Assembly (NCBI RefSeq): GCF_029167365.1
Contig: NZ_JARFNM010000001.1
Location: 434,001 to 498,000 of the forward strand
Origin: Amygdalobacter nucleatus
Lineage (GTDB): Bacteria; Bacillota; Clostridia; Saccharofermentanales; Fastidiosipilaceae
DNA length: 64,000 nt
Direction of reading: 5' to 3'
Part shown: positions 5,916 through 28,690 of the stretch, piece after piece
Layout of the letters: the number at the start of each line of letters is the position of its first letter
Position numbering within the stretch: position 1 is the first letter of the stretch
Notes under the pieces: generated by a model
Told to the model about the DNA's origin: nothing
Seen by the model: the letters and a program-made list of their open reading frames with translations, nothing else
The model's database searches: none
Program-made: the position numbers and the translations under genes

Positions 5916-5939
5916 TTAGATGTTAATCAAAAACACGAC

Positions 5940-6021
5940 GTTATGGTATGGGAGCTATTAGCTGAGACGCAAGGACCATCATTACCTGATCCGGATAATA
6001 CCGGCGGAGGGAATTCATAAC
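5940..6021 (+). promoter_or_regulatory. TPP (THI-box) riboswitch
   Basis: The conserved thiamine pyrophosphate aptamer blocks are present in order: GGGAGC at 5950-5955, CTGAGA at 5962-5967, CCTGATCCGGATAATACC at 5985-6002 and GGAGGGAA at 6006-6013. They are closed by a P1 stem of GTTATG (5940-5945) with CATAAC (6016-6021). It precedes the predicted thiamine transporter gene thiT by 108 bases. The expression platform is not obvious. AAGGAC inside the aptamer (5971-5976) could pair with GTCCTT just before a T-run at 6055-6064, which would make a ligand-dependent terminator switch possible, but this is inference. Confidence 0.95.
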
Positions 6022-6129
6022 TTAACAATAGTTTTACTCTTGTTAGGCGGAATTGTCCTTTTTCCCAGTTGAGATATTTAGCAAACTCTCTGGCGTTGTG
6101 AAATCAACGATTAGAGAAAGAGGTTTTCC

Positions 6130-23935: not shown

Positions 23936-23974
23936 AAGAGGCTCGGCCGTATGGCAGGGCCTCTTTGCTTTTTT
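23936..23974 (+). terminator. intrinsic terminator after pgk-tpiA
   Basis: AAGAGGC (23936-23942) pairs with GCCTCTT (23959-23965), followed by TGCTTTTTT. Confidence 0.85.
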
Positions 23975-24025
23975 AGCTTAGTTGGCTACTAATTTGGGAA
24001 AGCTTGAAGATTGTAAGTCGACCAA

Positions 24026-24057
24026 TTGCACCGAATATTATATAATATTTGGTGCAA
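24026..24057 (+). promoter_or_regulatory. 32-base near-perfect palindrome upstream of nifJ
   Basis: TTGCACC and GGTGCAA flank a perfect 16-base palindrome (AATATTAT/ATAATATT), with one G-T mismatch pair between. It lies 54 bases upstream of the -35 box of the nifJ promoter and has no T-run, so an operator for a dimeric regulator fits better than a terminator. Confidence 0.6.
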
Positions 24058-24110
24058 AATGCAGAGAACATTTTATTTGACGTGCATTTTACATCATGTG
24101 CGTCGCATGT

Positions 24111-24139
24111 TTGCAGAATTTATAGGCTTAAGCTATAAT
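24111..24139 (+). promoter_or_regulatory. sigma-A type promoter of nifJ leader
   Basis: TTGCAG (24111-24116), a 17-base spacer and a consensus TATAAT (24134-24139). Transcription should start near 24146. Confidence 0.8.
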
Positions 24140-24145
24140 ATATAC

Positions 24146-24264
24146 CCGGCTGTTAAGTGACAGCTACATTAACAATTAAGATTTAGAGATTAGTTTAGAA
24201 TAGTTTTGTTCTTAAAAAAGAGCCGACTTGACCTAACGTATGTATGGTCATGGCCGGCTTTTTT
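24146..24264 (+). promoter_or_regulatory. nifJ leader with terminator hairpin (attenuator candidate)
   Basis: A leader of roughly 119 bases ends in a strong intrinsic terminator. AGCCG (24221-24225) pairs with CGGCT (24255-24259), and the stem continues with C-G, T-A and GACC/GGTC pairs to a 12-base loop, followed by six T (24259-24264). This is only 12 bases before the nifJ ATG. A 5' hairpin GCTGT/ACAGC (24149-24164) and a second CGGCT at 24147-24151, which could compete for the AGCCG arm, suggest a switch. No T-box or known riboswitch core is visible. A terminated small RNA is an alternative. Confidence 0.6.
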
Positions 24265-24276
24265 GATGGGTGAAGG

Positions 24277-27200
24277 ATGGAGAAAAGACAACAAGTAACA
24301 GTAGATGGAAATCAGGCCGCTGCCTTAGCTGCGTATGCATTCACTGAGGTGGCTGGCATATATCCAATTACGCCATCTTCGCCTATGGCCGATTGGGTAG
24401 ACAAATGGTCTAAGCAGGGCAAGGAGAATATTTTTCGCCAGACTGTTAATGTGATAGAGATGCAATCTGAAGGTGGTGCTGCAGCTGTATTACACGGTGC
24501 AGCAAGTAGTGGCGTTTTAGCTACCACGTTTACAGCTTCGCAGGGCCTTTTGTTGATGATCCCAGATATGTTTAAAATTGCAGGTGAAATGTTACCAGTT
24601 GTTTTGCACGTAGCGGCTAGAACTATTGCAACACACGCTTTGTCTATTTTTGGTGACCATTCAGATGTTATGGCTGCTAGGACAACTGGCTTTGCTTTAC
24701 TAGCATCTTCTAGTGTACAAGAAGCTTACGATATGGCTGTTGTTACGCACTTATCAGCTATCAAGCACTCCATGCCATTTATTCATTTTTTTGATGGCTT
24801 TCGCACTTCACATGAGATCCAGAGAATCTCTATTTTGTCTGATGAAACTTTGAAGAGCTTAGTTGACAAAGACGCTATTAACAAATTTCGCGAGCGTGCT
24901 TTGACGCCAAACAAGCCTGTTTTGTATGGCTCCAACCAAAATGGCGACATCTTTTTTCAGGCGCGTGAAGCTTGTAATATGACTTATCAGACATTGGCTG
25001 ATACAGTTGAAGCTAAGATGCAGCGCATCAACGCTTTGACAGGTAATAACTATCAACTATTTAATTACTATGGTGATTCTCAGGCTGAATTAGTTATCGT
25101 TGCAATGGGTTCAATTTGTGAGACGATCAAAGAAACAATCAACTATCTAAATAAGCAAGGACGCCAAAAATTAGGCTTAGTGCAAGTGCATCTTTATCGG
25201 CCTTTCGTGCATGCTAAGTTAAGAGCAGCTATTCCTACAAGTTGTCGCAAATTGGCTGTTTTAGACCGCACCAAAGAGCCTGGGGCCAACAATGAGCCAC
25301 TCAAATTAGATGTCATTGCAGCTTTTAACGGCATGCCTGATGCACCTTTAATTATTGGCGGCCGCTATGGCTTAGCATCCAAAGATACTACACCAGATGA
25401 TATATTGGCCTTGTTCAATGAAATGGCTAAGCCAGAGCCTAAACCAGAATTCACTTTGGCGATTAATGATGATGTGACACATTTGTCTTTACCAAGAACA
25501 GAACATATCGACACAACTTTGCCGAATACTATTTCCTGCCGTTTCTGGGGCATGGGTTCAGATGGTACAGTTGGTGCGAACAAAAATACGATAAAGATCA
25601 TCGGCGATAACACTGACTTAAATGTACAGGCTTATTTTTCGTATGATTCCAAGAAATCAGGCGGCTTAACTATTTCTGACTTGCGCTTTGGTAAAGAGCC
25701 AATTCATCAGCCTTATCTCGTCAACAGCGCCGATTTTGTATCTTGCTCGCAGCAGTCATATGTCTTTAAGTACGATATGTTGGACGATTTGAAAGAAGGC
25801 GGCAGCTTTCTGTTGAATTCAATTTGGACAGCTGACGACTTGGAGCGTTTTTTGCCTGCTGCTTATAAGCAGAAATTAGCATTGAAAAAGATCAAGCTCT
25901 ATTTAATTGATGCCTACAAAATTGCTAAAGAAATTGGCCTTGATAAGCGCACGAACACCGTTTTGCAAGCTGCTTTTTTCAAAATAGCCCAAGTTTTGCC
26001 AGCTGAATTAGCACAAGCTTATCTGAATAAATATGTGGCCAAAACCTATGCCCTCAAAGGTGAAGAGATTGTCAGCATGAACTTAGCTGCAATTGCAGCC
26101 GGCTTTGCAAACCTTGAGCCAATTGCAATACCTGAAGCTTGGGAAAATTGCAAGTTAGATGGCACAAGTAACAATGTTGGCACGCCAAATTGGCAGACTT
26201 ATAGCGACCAAGAAGAAGCTGACTTCATGCAGAATATTGCTGAGATAATGAATCGCCAAAAGGGTGACAAATTACCAGTTTCTGCCTTTATGCCTTACAT
26301 GCGTGGCAATTTTCCGCAAGGCACAACCAAGCATGAGAAGCGCGAGATTGCCTTGCAAGCGCCAAGATGGATAGCTGAAAACTGTATCCAATGTAATCAG
26401 TGTGCGTTCGTTTGCCCACATTCTGTTATTCGTCCTTTCTTAATTACGGATGAAGAATTAGCCAAAGCACCGTATGATTTGGAAACTGCACAAGGAACAA
26501 GACCCTATAATGACTACAAATTTCGTATTCAAGTTTCAACTTTGGATTGCACAAGCTGTGCTGCTTGTGTAGAAACTTGCCCGGCGCCGAAGAAAGCTTT
26601 GGTGATGGATGATCTGACTAGAATGCCAGAAGAACCGACCAAGTGGAATTATCTCTCCAGTTTGCCACCTAAAGCTAATCCTATGAAGCCGACTGTAGTT
26701 AAAGGTTCCCAGTTCAACAAGCCGTATTTTGAATTTTCAGGTGCGTGTGCAGGTTGCGGTGAGACGCCTTATATCAAAGTTTTGACGCAACTATTTGGCG
26801 ATAAGATGCTAATTTCTAATGCTACGGGTTGTTCTTCAATTTATGGTGCGGCTGTACCAAGTCAGCCATATTGTAAAGATAGCTGTGGCCGTGGCCCAGC
26901 TTGGACTAATTCGCTATTTGAAGACAATGCTGAAAATGGCTTTGGTATGTATTTGGCCGGCAAACAAATTCAGCTACGCATCACCAAATTGTTGGATGAG
27001 CTTAAGCAGGCTTTGACCAACTTGAACATGGAATTGACTGAGGCTGAACAGGCTATTATAGATGAGTGGCAAGCCAAAATGACAGTCACGGATGGTACTT
27101 TGGAGAGAGCAGCCAAACTGACTGATTTGTTACAGAATTTACTTGCAAATAGTCAAGCTACAGCTATACAGGGCTTATTCAACGAGATTTTGAACTATAA

Positions 27201-27906
27201 AGACTACTTCACCAAACGTTCAACTTGGATCATCGGCGGTGATGGTTGGGCTTACGATATTGGCTATGGTGGATTGGATCATGTGCTATCGACAGGCGAG
27301 AATGTCAATGTGTTGGTGTTGGATACAGAAGTTTACTCCAACACAGGCGGTCAAGCCTCCAAAGCTACGCCAACTGGTGCCATTGCGCAATTTGCTGCCG
27401 GTGGTAAAGCTATGGCAAAAAAAGACCTCGGCATGATGGTTATGAATTATGGCTATGTTTATGTTGCCCAAATTGCTATGGGTGCTAATCAAAGCCAGAC
27501 ATTAAAAGCATTAGTGGAAGCTGAGCAATATGATGGCCCTTCTTTGGTCATTGCATATTCGCCATGTATTGAGCATCAAATCAAAGGCGGCTTACGTTAC
27601 AGCCAACAAATAGAGAAAGAGGCAGTTGAGGCAGGCTATTGGCATCTTTATCGCTATGATCCAATGCGCCTGAATAAAGGCAAAAATCCGTTTCAGCTCG
27701 ATTCAAAGCAGCCTAAAGGTGACTTTGCTAGTTTCATGATGAACGAAGGGCGTTTCAGTGCTTTGACTAAGAAATATTCAGAAGATGAAGTGCAAAGAAT
27801 TATTGCACAGGCAAAATTTCATGCTGAGCAGCGCTATTTATCCTACTTGCGTAAAAGCAAAGAGTATGAAACTGTTCCAGCTGATTTCTTACATCCAGCT
27901 AATTAA
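24277..27906 (+). CDS. nifJ: pyruvate:ferredoxin (flavodoxin) oxidoreductase, single-chain
   Basis: The 1209-residue enzyme oxidises pyruvate with CoA to acetyl-CoA and CO2 and reduces ferredoxin or flavodoxin. Domains in order are the N-terminal pyruvate-binding part (GIYPITPSSPMADWVD), the gamma and CoA regions (MGSDGTVGANKNTIKII near residue 430), two 4Fe-4S clusters (CIQCNQCAFVCPH near 705 and CTSCAACVETCPAP near 758), then the thiamine diphosphate part with CAGCGETPY near 824 and GDGWAYDIGYGGLDHV near 988. The C-terminal extension is typical of the homodimeric form. A flavodoxin gene at 39446 could encode an acceptor. The start lies 12 bases after a terminator-like hairpin, so expression may depend on read-through. 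Confidence 0.96.
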   Translation: MEKRQQVTVDGNQAAALAAYAFTEVAGIYPITPSSPMADWVDKWSKQGKENIFRQTVNVIEMQSEGGAAAVLHGAASSGVLATTFTASQGLLLMIPDMFKIAGEMLPVVLHVAARTIATHALSIFGDHSDVMAARTTGFALLASSSVQEAYDMAVVTHLSAIKHSMPFIHFFDGFRTSHEIQRISILSDETLKSLVDKDAINKFRERALTPNKPVLYGSNQNGDIFFQAREACNMTYQTLADTVEAKMQRINALTGNNYQLFNYYGDSQAELVIVAMGSICETIKETINYLNKQGRQKLGLVQVHLYRPFVHAKLRAAIPTSCRKLAVLDRTKEPGANNEPLKLDVIAAFNGMPDAPLIIGGRYGLASKDTTPDDILALFNEMAKPEPKPEFTLAINDDVTHLSLPRTEHIDTTLPNTISCRFWGMGSDGTVGANKNTIKIIGDNTDLNVQAYFSYDSKKSGGLTISDLRFGKEPIHQPYLVNSADFVSCSQQSYVFKYDMLDDLKEGGSFLLNSIWTADDLERFLPAAYKQKLALKKIKLYLIDAYKIAKEIGLDKRTNTVLQAAFFKIAQVLPAELAQAYLNKYVAKTYALKGEEIVSMNLAAIAAGFANLEPIAIPEAWENCKLDGTSNNVGTPNWQTYSDQEEADFMQNIAEIMNRQKGDKLPVSAFMPYMRGNFPQGTTKHEKREIALQAPRWIAENCIQCNQCAFVCPHSVIRPFLITDEELAKAPYDLETAQGTRPYNDYKFRIQVSTLDCTSCAACVETCPAPKKALVMDDLTRMPEEPTKWNYLSSLPPKANPMKPTVVKGSQFNKPYFEFSGACAGCGETPYIKVLTQLFGDKMLISNATGCSSIYGAAVPSQPYCKDSCGRGPAWTNSLFEDNAENGFGMYLAGKQIQLRITKLLDELKQALTNLNMELTEAEQAIIDEWQAKMTVTDGTLERAAKLTDLLQNLLANSQATAIQGLFNEILNYKDYFTKRSTWIIGGDGWAYDIGYGGLDHVLSTGENVNVLVLDTEVYSNTGGQASKATPTGAIAQFAAGGKAMAKKDLGMMVMNYGYVYVAQIAMGANQSQTLKALVEAEQYDGPSLVIAYSPCIEHQIKGGLRYSQQIEKEAVEAGYWHLYRYDPMRLNKGKNPFQLDSKQPKGDFASFMMNEGRFSALTKKYSEDEVQRIIAQAKFHAEQRYLSYLRKSKEYETVPADFLHPAN

Positions 27907-28015: not shown

Positions 28016-28690
28016 ATGGAGAGAGCAGAATTATATAATCAACTATATCAACAAATTCGCGAACGAATTTTGAGCGGGCGGTTACAAATTGGCCAGCTTA
28101 TTTCGGAGCGTAGTTTGGCTGCTGAATTCCATAGCTCGCGTACACCAATTAGGCGTGCCTTGCAAGAATTACTCAAAGAAGGCCTATTAGTAAAACGCAG
28201 TCAGCGTGGATACATCGTTAATATAGCGACCTTAGATGACTTACGTGAGGTACATGATATTAGAATTTCTTTGGAAAGTTTAGCTTGCTATCAGGCAGCT
28301 CAACAGATGGATGAAACTGAATTTCAAGCCCTAGCTAATTTGAACTATGAAGCTCGCCAGATTATAGAGCACAGTGGCGATCCTAAGCTTTTATACAAAT
28401 TGCAAGAAAAGTTTTTAGCGCAAATTAATGCTTATAGTGGCATGACGAGACTCCAACAGCTTCAGGAGATTGTTGATGGCTATCTGCAGCATTTCGATAA
28501 TGTTTTTCTTTCTAACATTTTGCCAGAGTGTTCTATGATAGTGAAAGATAATGAAGATTTGGTGGAAGCGATGCGCAAACAAGATAAGGCCGCCATAGAA
28601 AGAATCGTCAAGCACCGTTATTCTATCAGTTATGATTACATCTGTAATAAGCTAAAAGCACACAGTGATTTACAAGCAACAAAAGATTAA
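28016..28690 (+). CDS. GntR-family regulator, FadR (FCD) subfamily
   Basis: The 224-residue protein has an N-terminal winged helix (LYQQIRERILSGRLQIGQLI, then ERSLAAEFHSSRTPIRRALQELLKEG) in residues 5-70 and a C-terminal helical FCD-type ligand domain (LREVHDIRISLESLACYQAA ... IVKHRYSI). Members respond to organic acids or sugars and bind short palindromes. Its position 109 bases after nifJ makes pyruvate or central metabolism a possible theme. The 32-base palindrome upstream of nifJ is a candidate site, but nothing proves the link. The ribosome binding site is weak. Confidence 0.85.
   Translation: MERAELYNQLYQQIRERILSGRLQIGQLISERSLAAEFHSSRTPIRRALQELLKEGLLVKRSQRGYIVNIATLDDLREVHDIRISLESLACYQAAQQMDETEFQALANLNYEARQIIEHSGDPKLLYKLQEKFLAQINAYSGMTRLQQLQEIVDGYLQHFDNVFLSNILPECSMIVKDNEDLVEAMRKQDKAAIERIVKHRYSISYDYICNKLKAHSDLQATKD

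Follow-up and report, generated by a model that had tools for sequence, protein, structure and literature searches.

A Probable Lineage-Specific Attenuator in the nifJ Leader of Amygdalobacter nucleatus

Results and Discussion

The gene for pyruvate:ferredoxin oxidoreductase (PFOR) in Amygdalobacter nucleatus (nifJ; 24277–27906, 1209 aa, the sole full copy in the genome) is preceded by a leader that we consider, on balance, to be a lineage-specific attenuator, its most likely form probably being a partial terminator that sets the level of nifJ (positions are those of the window, the whole 64,000-nucleotide stretch of DNA that was analysed; the features described at the nifJ locus lie on its forward strand). 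In the mechanism that we propose, RNA polymerase would start near 24144–24148 and make a leader of approximately 115–120 bases; at the U run (24259–24264) some polymerases would stop and the rest would continue into nifJ, where both termination in the cell and its partial character are what we infer, and the terminator would in this way set, and perhaps adjust, the level of pyruvate:ferredoxin oxidoreductase. An upstream CGGCT may also pair with the 5′ arm of the terminator before the 3′ arm has been made, in which case the speed of folding alone could set the fraction of polymerases that read through.

Tuning of the nifJ level could make sense because pyruvate formate-lyase is also encoded in the genome. 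If read-through is regulated, the branch point at which pyruvate yields acetyl-CoA and reduced ferredoxin would be set by RNA folding, not by a repressor, in a genome that has this second enzyme as well; if the terminator is merely leaky, it nonetheless exemplifies expression tuning of a kind that is seemingly frequent in this genome. The nifJ leader is, in short, of an unremarkable type but interestingly placed.

The nifJ Gene, Its Putative Promoter and the Intervening Terminator

The NifJ protein scores 1680 bits against TIGR02176 (cutoff 911) and shares 57–62% identity with its counterparts in family and order relatives; the protein alignment with these relatives begins at residue 3–5, and the ATG at 24277 is the correct start. 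The pgk-tpi gene precedes nifJ in at least eight relatives. In A. nucleatus the upstream pgk-tpi has a terminator of its own (23938–23975, with a stem at 23953–23969 and an outer AGAGGC/GCCTCT stem in the sequence), so the terminator in the leader is unnecessary for pgk-tpi.

A reading of the sequence that preceded this analysis (herein referred to as the sequence-only reading) had placed a good promoter, TTGCAG-17-TATAAT, ahead of the leader. The positions of this putative promoter (24111–24139, with TTGCAG at 24111–24116 and TATAAT at 24134–24139), its 17-base spacer and its perfect −10 box all hold, and its placement and −10 box resemble those in relatives; on the other side, the −35 box is weak, matching at 3 of 6 positions, and the region holds no excess of promoter-like sites (10 vs. 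15.2 expected). The promoter scan itself favors TTTGCA with a spacer of 18 bases (10/12 overall). A promoter at this place is likely because in relatives nifJ is served by its own promoter, whose comparable −10 box lies 50–140 bases 5′ of the gene. From the position of the −10 box and the preference for purines, transcription is predicted to start at A24144 or G24148 (24144–24148); these are likelier starts than C24146 because purines are preferred at starts, making up 94.8% of them in Clostridium acetobutylicum (PMC9045289).

The leader ends in an intrinsic terminator (24216–24264; 5′ arm AAAAGAGCCG, 3′ arm CGGCT with a run of six T at 24259–24264), that is, a stable G+C-rich hairpin followed directly by a U run, with a predicted free energy of −20.3 kcal/mol when the A tract is included (core −15.8). 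It lies between the inferred promoter and the gene, with no promoter following it, and 12 bases separate it from the nifJ ATG; a putative ribosome-binding stretch, GGGTGAAGG (24268–24276), in which GGTGA is part of the Shine-Dalgarno complement, falls within this gap. The leader of approximately 119 bases that the sequence-only reading had described, ending in a strong six-T terminator just 5′ of nifJ, was right in all its coordinates. This arrangement gives good support to the view that nifJ mRNA would have to be made by polymerases reading past the terminator, because the gap is too short to hold a promoter, the start codon is fixed by the protein alignment and pgk-tpi is terminated separately. 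The argument is at its strongest in this requirement for read-through, which does not depend on conservation.

Two inverted repeats lie 5′ of the nifJ promoter. The first, TTGCACCGAATATTATATAATATTTGGTGCAA (24027–24056), is near-perfect, with approximately 13 pairs (−16.3 kcal/mol as RNA), occurs as a single copy in the genome and is a candidate operator or hairpin; the second, GACGTGCAT...ATGTGCGTC (24079–24105; −11.0 kcal/mol as RNA), is imperfect and stands directly 5′ of the promoter.

Near-Start Terminators in the Genome Sample

Whether such a terminator exceeds chance was judged in a genome sample of 464 kb, comprising the 64-kb window and 20 flanking stretches (L078–L097, 400 kb); its G+C content is 39%, and the published value for A. 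nucleatus is 39.3% (PMC11318147). Among genes preceded by a spacer of 70 bases or more (n = 201), we counted those with a terminator of −15 kcal/mol or stronger ending no more than 45 bases before the start codon. Nine of the 201 genes, nifJ among them, have a strong terminator in this position, compared with 0.08 expected from dinucleotide shuffles. At least five of the other cases lie in intergenic gaps of 74–89 bases, and the rest are a fluoride riboswitch leader, a gene that is transposase-like by sequence and a helix-turn-helix gene, which may follow a gene overlooked by the simple gene finder. Within the 464 kb, the nifJ leader is thus left as the one long leader with no ready explanation, whether as a known riboswitch or otherwise. 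The leader and the gap that follows it (24146–24276, 131 bases) fold 3.5 standard deviations below dinucleotide shuffles, a signal that stems from the terminator because the part preceding it is not significantly structured by itself (z approximately −1.45, p approximately 0.09).

Many gaps of 74–97 bases, in the window and in L078–L097, contain a strong terminator-like hairpin 20–45 bases before the next start codon. Since such hairpins are frequent between tandem genes, they may be merely leaky and common, and this genome may make wide use of leaky terminators between tandem genes. Partial terminators within operons have been described, for example in Methanococcus maripaludis (PMC10450193), and resemble the nifJ terminator as proposed here in that a fraction of polymerases passes a terminator between the transcript start and the gene; the nifJ terminator differs in that it does not stand between two genes but belongs to a distinct leader that has a promoter to itself.

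Competing Folds and Possible Regulation of Termination

The sequence-only reading had also pointed to a 5′ CGGCT that could compete for the AGCCG arm of the terminator and to a 5′ hairpin overlapping it. This hairpin (GGCTGTT/GACAGCT) does fold at 24148–24165, with −8.2 kcal/mol. The CGGCT at 24147–24151 is the same as the terminator 3′ arm, and CCGGCT as a whole (24146–24151) is repeated exactly at 24254–24259; as the 5′ strand of a candidate antiterminator stem, P1, it would pair with AGCCG (24221–24225) in the terminator 5′ arm. Two further candidate helices, both predicted from the single sequence, would complete a three-way junction: P2 (GTTAAGTG/TAC-TTAAC, 24152–24173) and P3 (TTAAGA...TCTTAA, 24176–24215, approximately −7 kcal/mol). 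In folding of the growing chain from 24226 to 24250, the junction of P1, P2 and P3 is the minimum (−17.0 kcal/mol), and the predicted probability of AGCCG being sequestered within the leader ahead of 3′-arm synthesis is 0.88; with the 3′ arm complete, the terminator wins (−35.6 vs. −24.1 kcal/mol for the antiterminator).

When 1,000 leaders were shuffled with the terminator arm kept, equal or better sequestration arose in 4.5% of them for a start at 24144 or 24146 (p approximately 0.05) and in 46% for a start at G24148 (p 0.46). The competition of CGGCT for the AGCCG arm is a real alternative fold, then, but marginal against shuffles and dependent on the exact start site. An antiterminator in the nifJ leader is possible on this modeling but not established, because shuffled leaders do nearly as well and the leader lacking its terminator falls short of significant structure.

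Regulation of the terminator is one alternative. A protein, a small RNA or a metabolite could favor the P1 three-way junction and so turn nifJ on, a reading that we regard as conceivable though rather unlikely: the two folds are mutually exclusive and sequestration is strongly predicted, but the ease with which shuffled leaders match it, above all if transcription starts at G24148, argues against it, as do the restricted distribution of the leader and the repertoire of RNA-binding proteins described below. Downstream of the gene, a GntR regulator with an FCD domain (28016–28690) lies immediately 3′ of nifJ; it is not adjacent to nifJ in the relatives checked and could be a local regulator.

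Conservation of the Leader among Relatives

The A. nucleatus leader stands alone among 86 distinct nifJ upstream regions in having a clear intrinsic terminator between the promoter and the start codon. DNA searches of the genome sample and of the order with the leader returned the leader itself and chance matches of 15–40 bases only; a covariance model built for the three-way junction from this one sequence gave no second match in 186 genomes of the order, and its best other match in the samples of the genome itself had E = 0.37. Taken together, no homologue of the leader in DNA or structure was found in approximately 187 genomes of the order, and a search for related loci in GTDB contigs yielded one distant KSB1 locus. 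Conservation in relatives was the check that the sequence-only reading had set for its own proposal, and the hairpin and leader proved to be absent from family- and order-level relatives, which speaks against that proposal at those levels; the absence of a further copy in the genome sample or the order likewise weakens the case for a regulated terminator.

Two relatives came close enough to be considered and were set aside. In one locus (L021) the −10 box is followed by CCGGCT/AGCCGG, with a U run close by, but three bases part the hairpin from the U run, and its congener (L108) is without a U run; in another (L007) the hairpin has −7 kcal/mol and the U run is paired within a longer hairpin. 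At a further locus (L020) the hairpin is weak and its tail poor.

In relatives, many nifJ leaders begin with a stable hairpin that has no U run (e.g., L022), and nifJ encodes a central enzyme for which high expression is expected; both points are consistent with an ineffective terminator, namely a 5′-UTR hairpin that stabilizes the beginning of the nifJ mRNA or positions it and whose U run is incidental. We find this improbable, since a G+C-rich stem running directly into six T, with an A tract to match, is the classic shape of a terminator, and shuffles yield hardly any strong cases.

Comparison with Known Regulatory Systems

The sequence-only reading had seen no known riboswitch, T-box or leader peptide core, a view that our searches bear out. 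The Rfam search of the leader gave no match at the gathering score and, at loose E-values, matches at chance level only; there is no T-box match, and no start codon in the leader is accompanied by a Shine-Dalgarno sequence. Attenuation by a leader peptide was rejected for want of a short ORF with a ribosome-binding site. Leaders of the trp type controlled by a leader peptide and T-box leaders are alike to that of nifJ in having a leader terminator to be passed; the nifJ leader differs from them in lacking both a leader peptide with a ribosome-binding site and a T-box match.

RNA-binding antiterminators and attenuators fare no better. Four (G/U)AG triplets, each spaced exactly 2 bases from the next (GAG-AT-TAG-TT-TAG-AA-TAG, 24186–24203), give the nifJ leader a TRAP-like appearance, recalling the TRAP-controlled trp leader of Bacillus subtilis, in which such triplets precede a terminator. 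TRAP sites have about 11 triplets, whereas the nifJ leader has four and the genome has no TRAP gene (PF02081 is absent, and the control was matched in B. subtilis), so the triplets are best taken as chance and TRAP was rejected. Antitermination of the BglG/LicT type was rejected likewise, the CAT_RBD domain (PF03123) being absent from the genome with the controls matched; the ANTAR search of the genome was empty, but its controls were likewise without a match. The absence of TRAP and of a BglG/LicT-type RNA-binding domain counts against a regulated terminator.

The closest likeness within the genome is to terminator-type riboswitches. The fluoride (RF01734) and TPP (RF00059) riboswitch leaders of A. 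nucleatus share with the nifJ leader a promoter, a comparable leader length and possible competing folds, and the terminator of the fluoride riboswitch leader ends 26 bases before the ATG, a geometry (10–30 bases before the start) that the nifJ leader shares and that favors an attenuator, whether partial or regulated. The nifJ leader differs in that it matches no Rfam aptamer, is not conserved and shows no significant structure 5′ of the terminator.

The boldest form of regulation, a genus-restricted three-way-junction antiterminator that responds to a ligand or protein and turns on nifJ, would be the first known RNA switch on PFOR; we consider it quite improbable. At the level of titles and abstracts, we found no report in the literature searched of a riboswitch or transcription attenuation on PFOR, and transcription starts have been mapped upstream of PFOR genes in two Clostridium groups, with no attenuator reported in the accessible parts of these studies (PMC5171806, PMC9045289).

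A free-standing small RNA of approximately 119 bases with its 3′ end at the terminator, and with nifJ fed by read-through as a by-product, would agree with the promoter, the structured body and a terminator at small-RNA size, but is very unlikely given that it has no Rfam match and no conserved copy and would leave nifJ without another promoter. The new riboswitch for pyruvate, CoA, acetyl-CoA or thiamine diphosphate that the sequence-only reading had suggested is just as doubtful: in its favor are competing folds in a terminator-bearing leader that precedes a metabolic gene, and the TPP riboswitch in the window, which shows that the genome uses such switches, but the candidate aptamer lacks significant structure and occurs before one gene in one genome, absent from family-level relatives. 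Approximately 187 genomes of the order yielded no homologue that could make it a conserved, covarying aptamer. The wider suggestion of a new metabolite- or protein-sensing element is likewise not supported, the competing pairing being marginal against shuffles and start-dependent, the leader having no copy in the genome sample or order and other nifJ leaders having no clear terminator.

Three known riboswitches were identified in the course of these searches: a TPP riboswitch in the window (5938–6030; RF00059, 56.7 bits), a THF riboswitch (RF01831; L089, 19330–19428) and a fluoride riboswitch (L095, 10039–10118, reverse strand), whose downstream gene, judged from its sequence, is sodium/proton antiporter-like.
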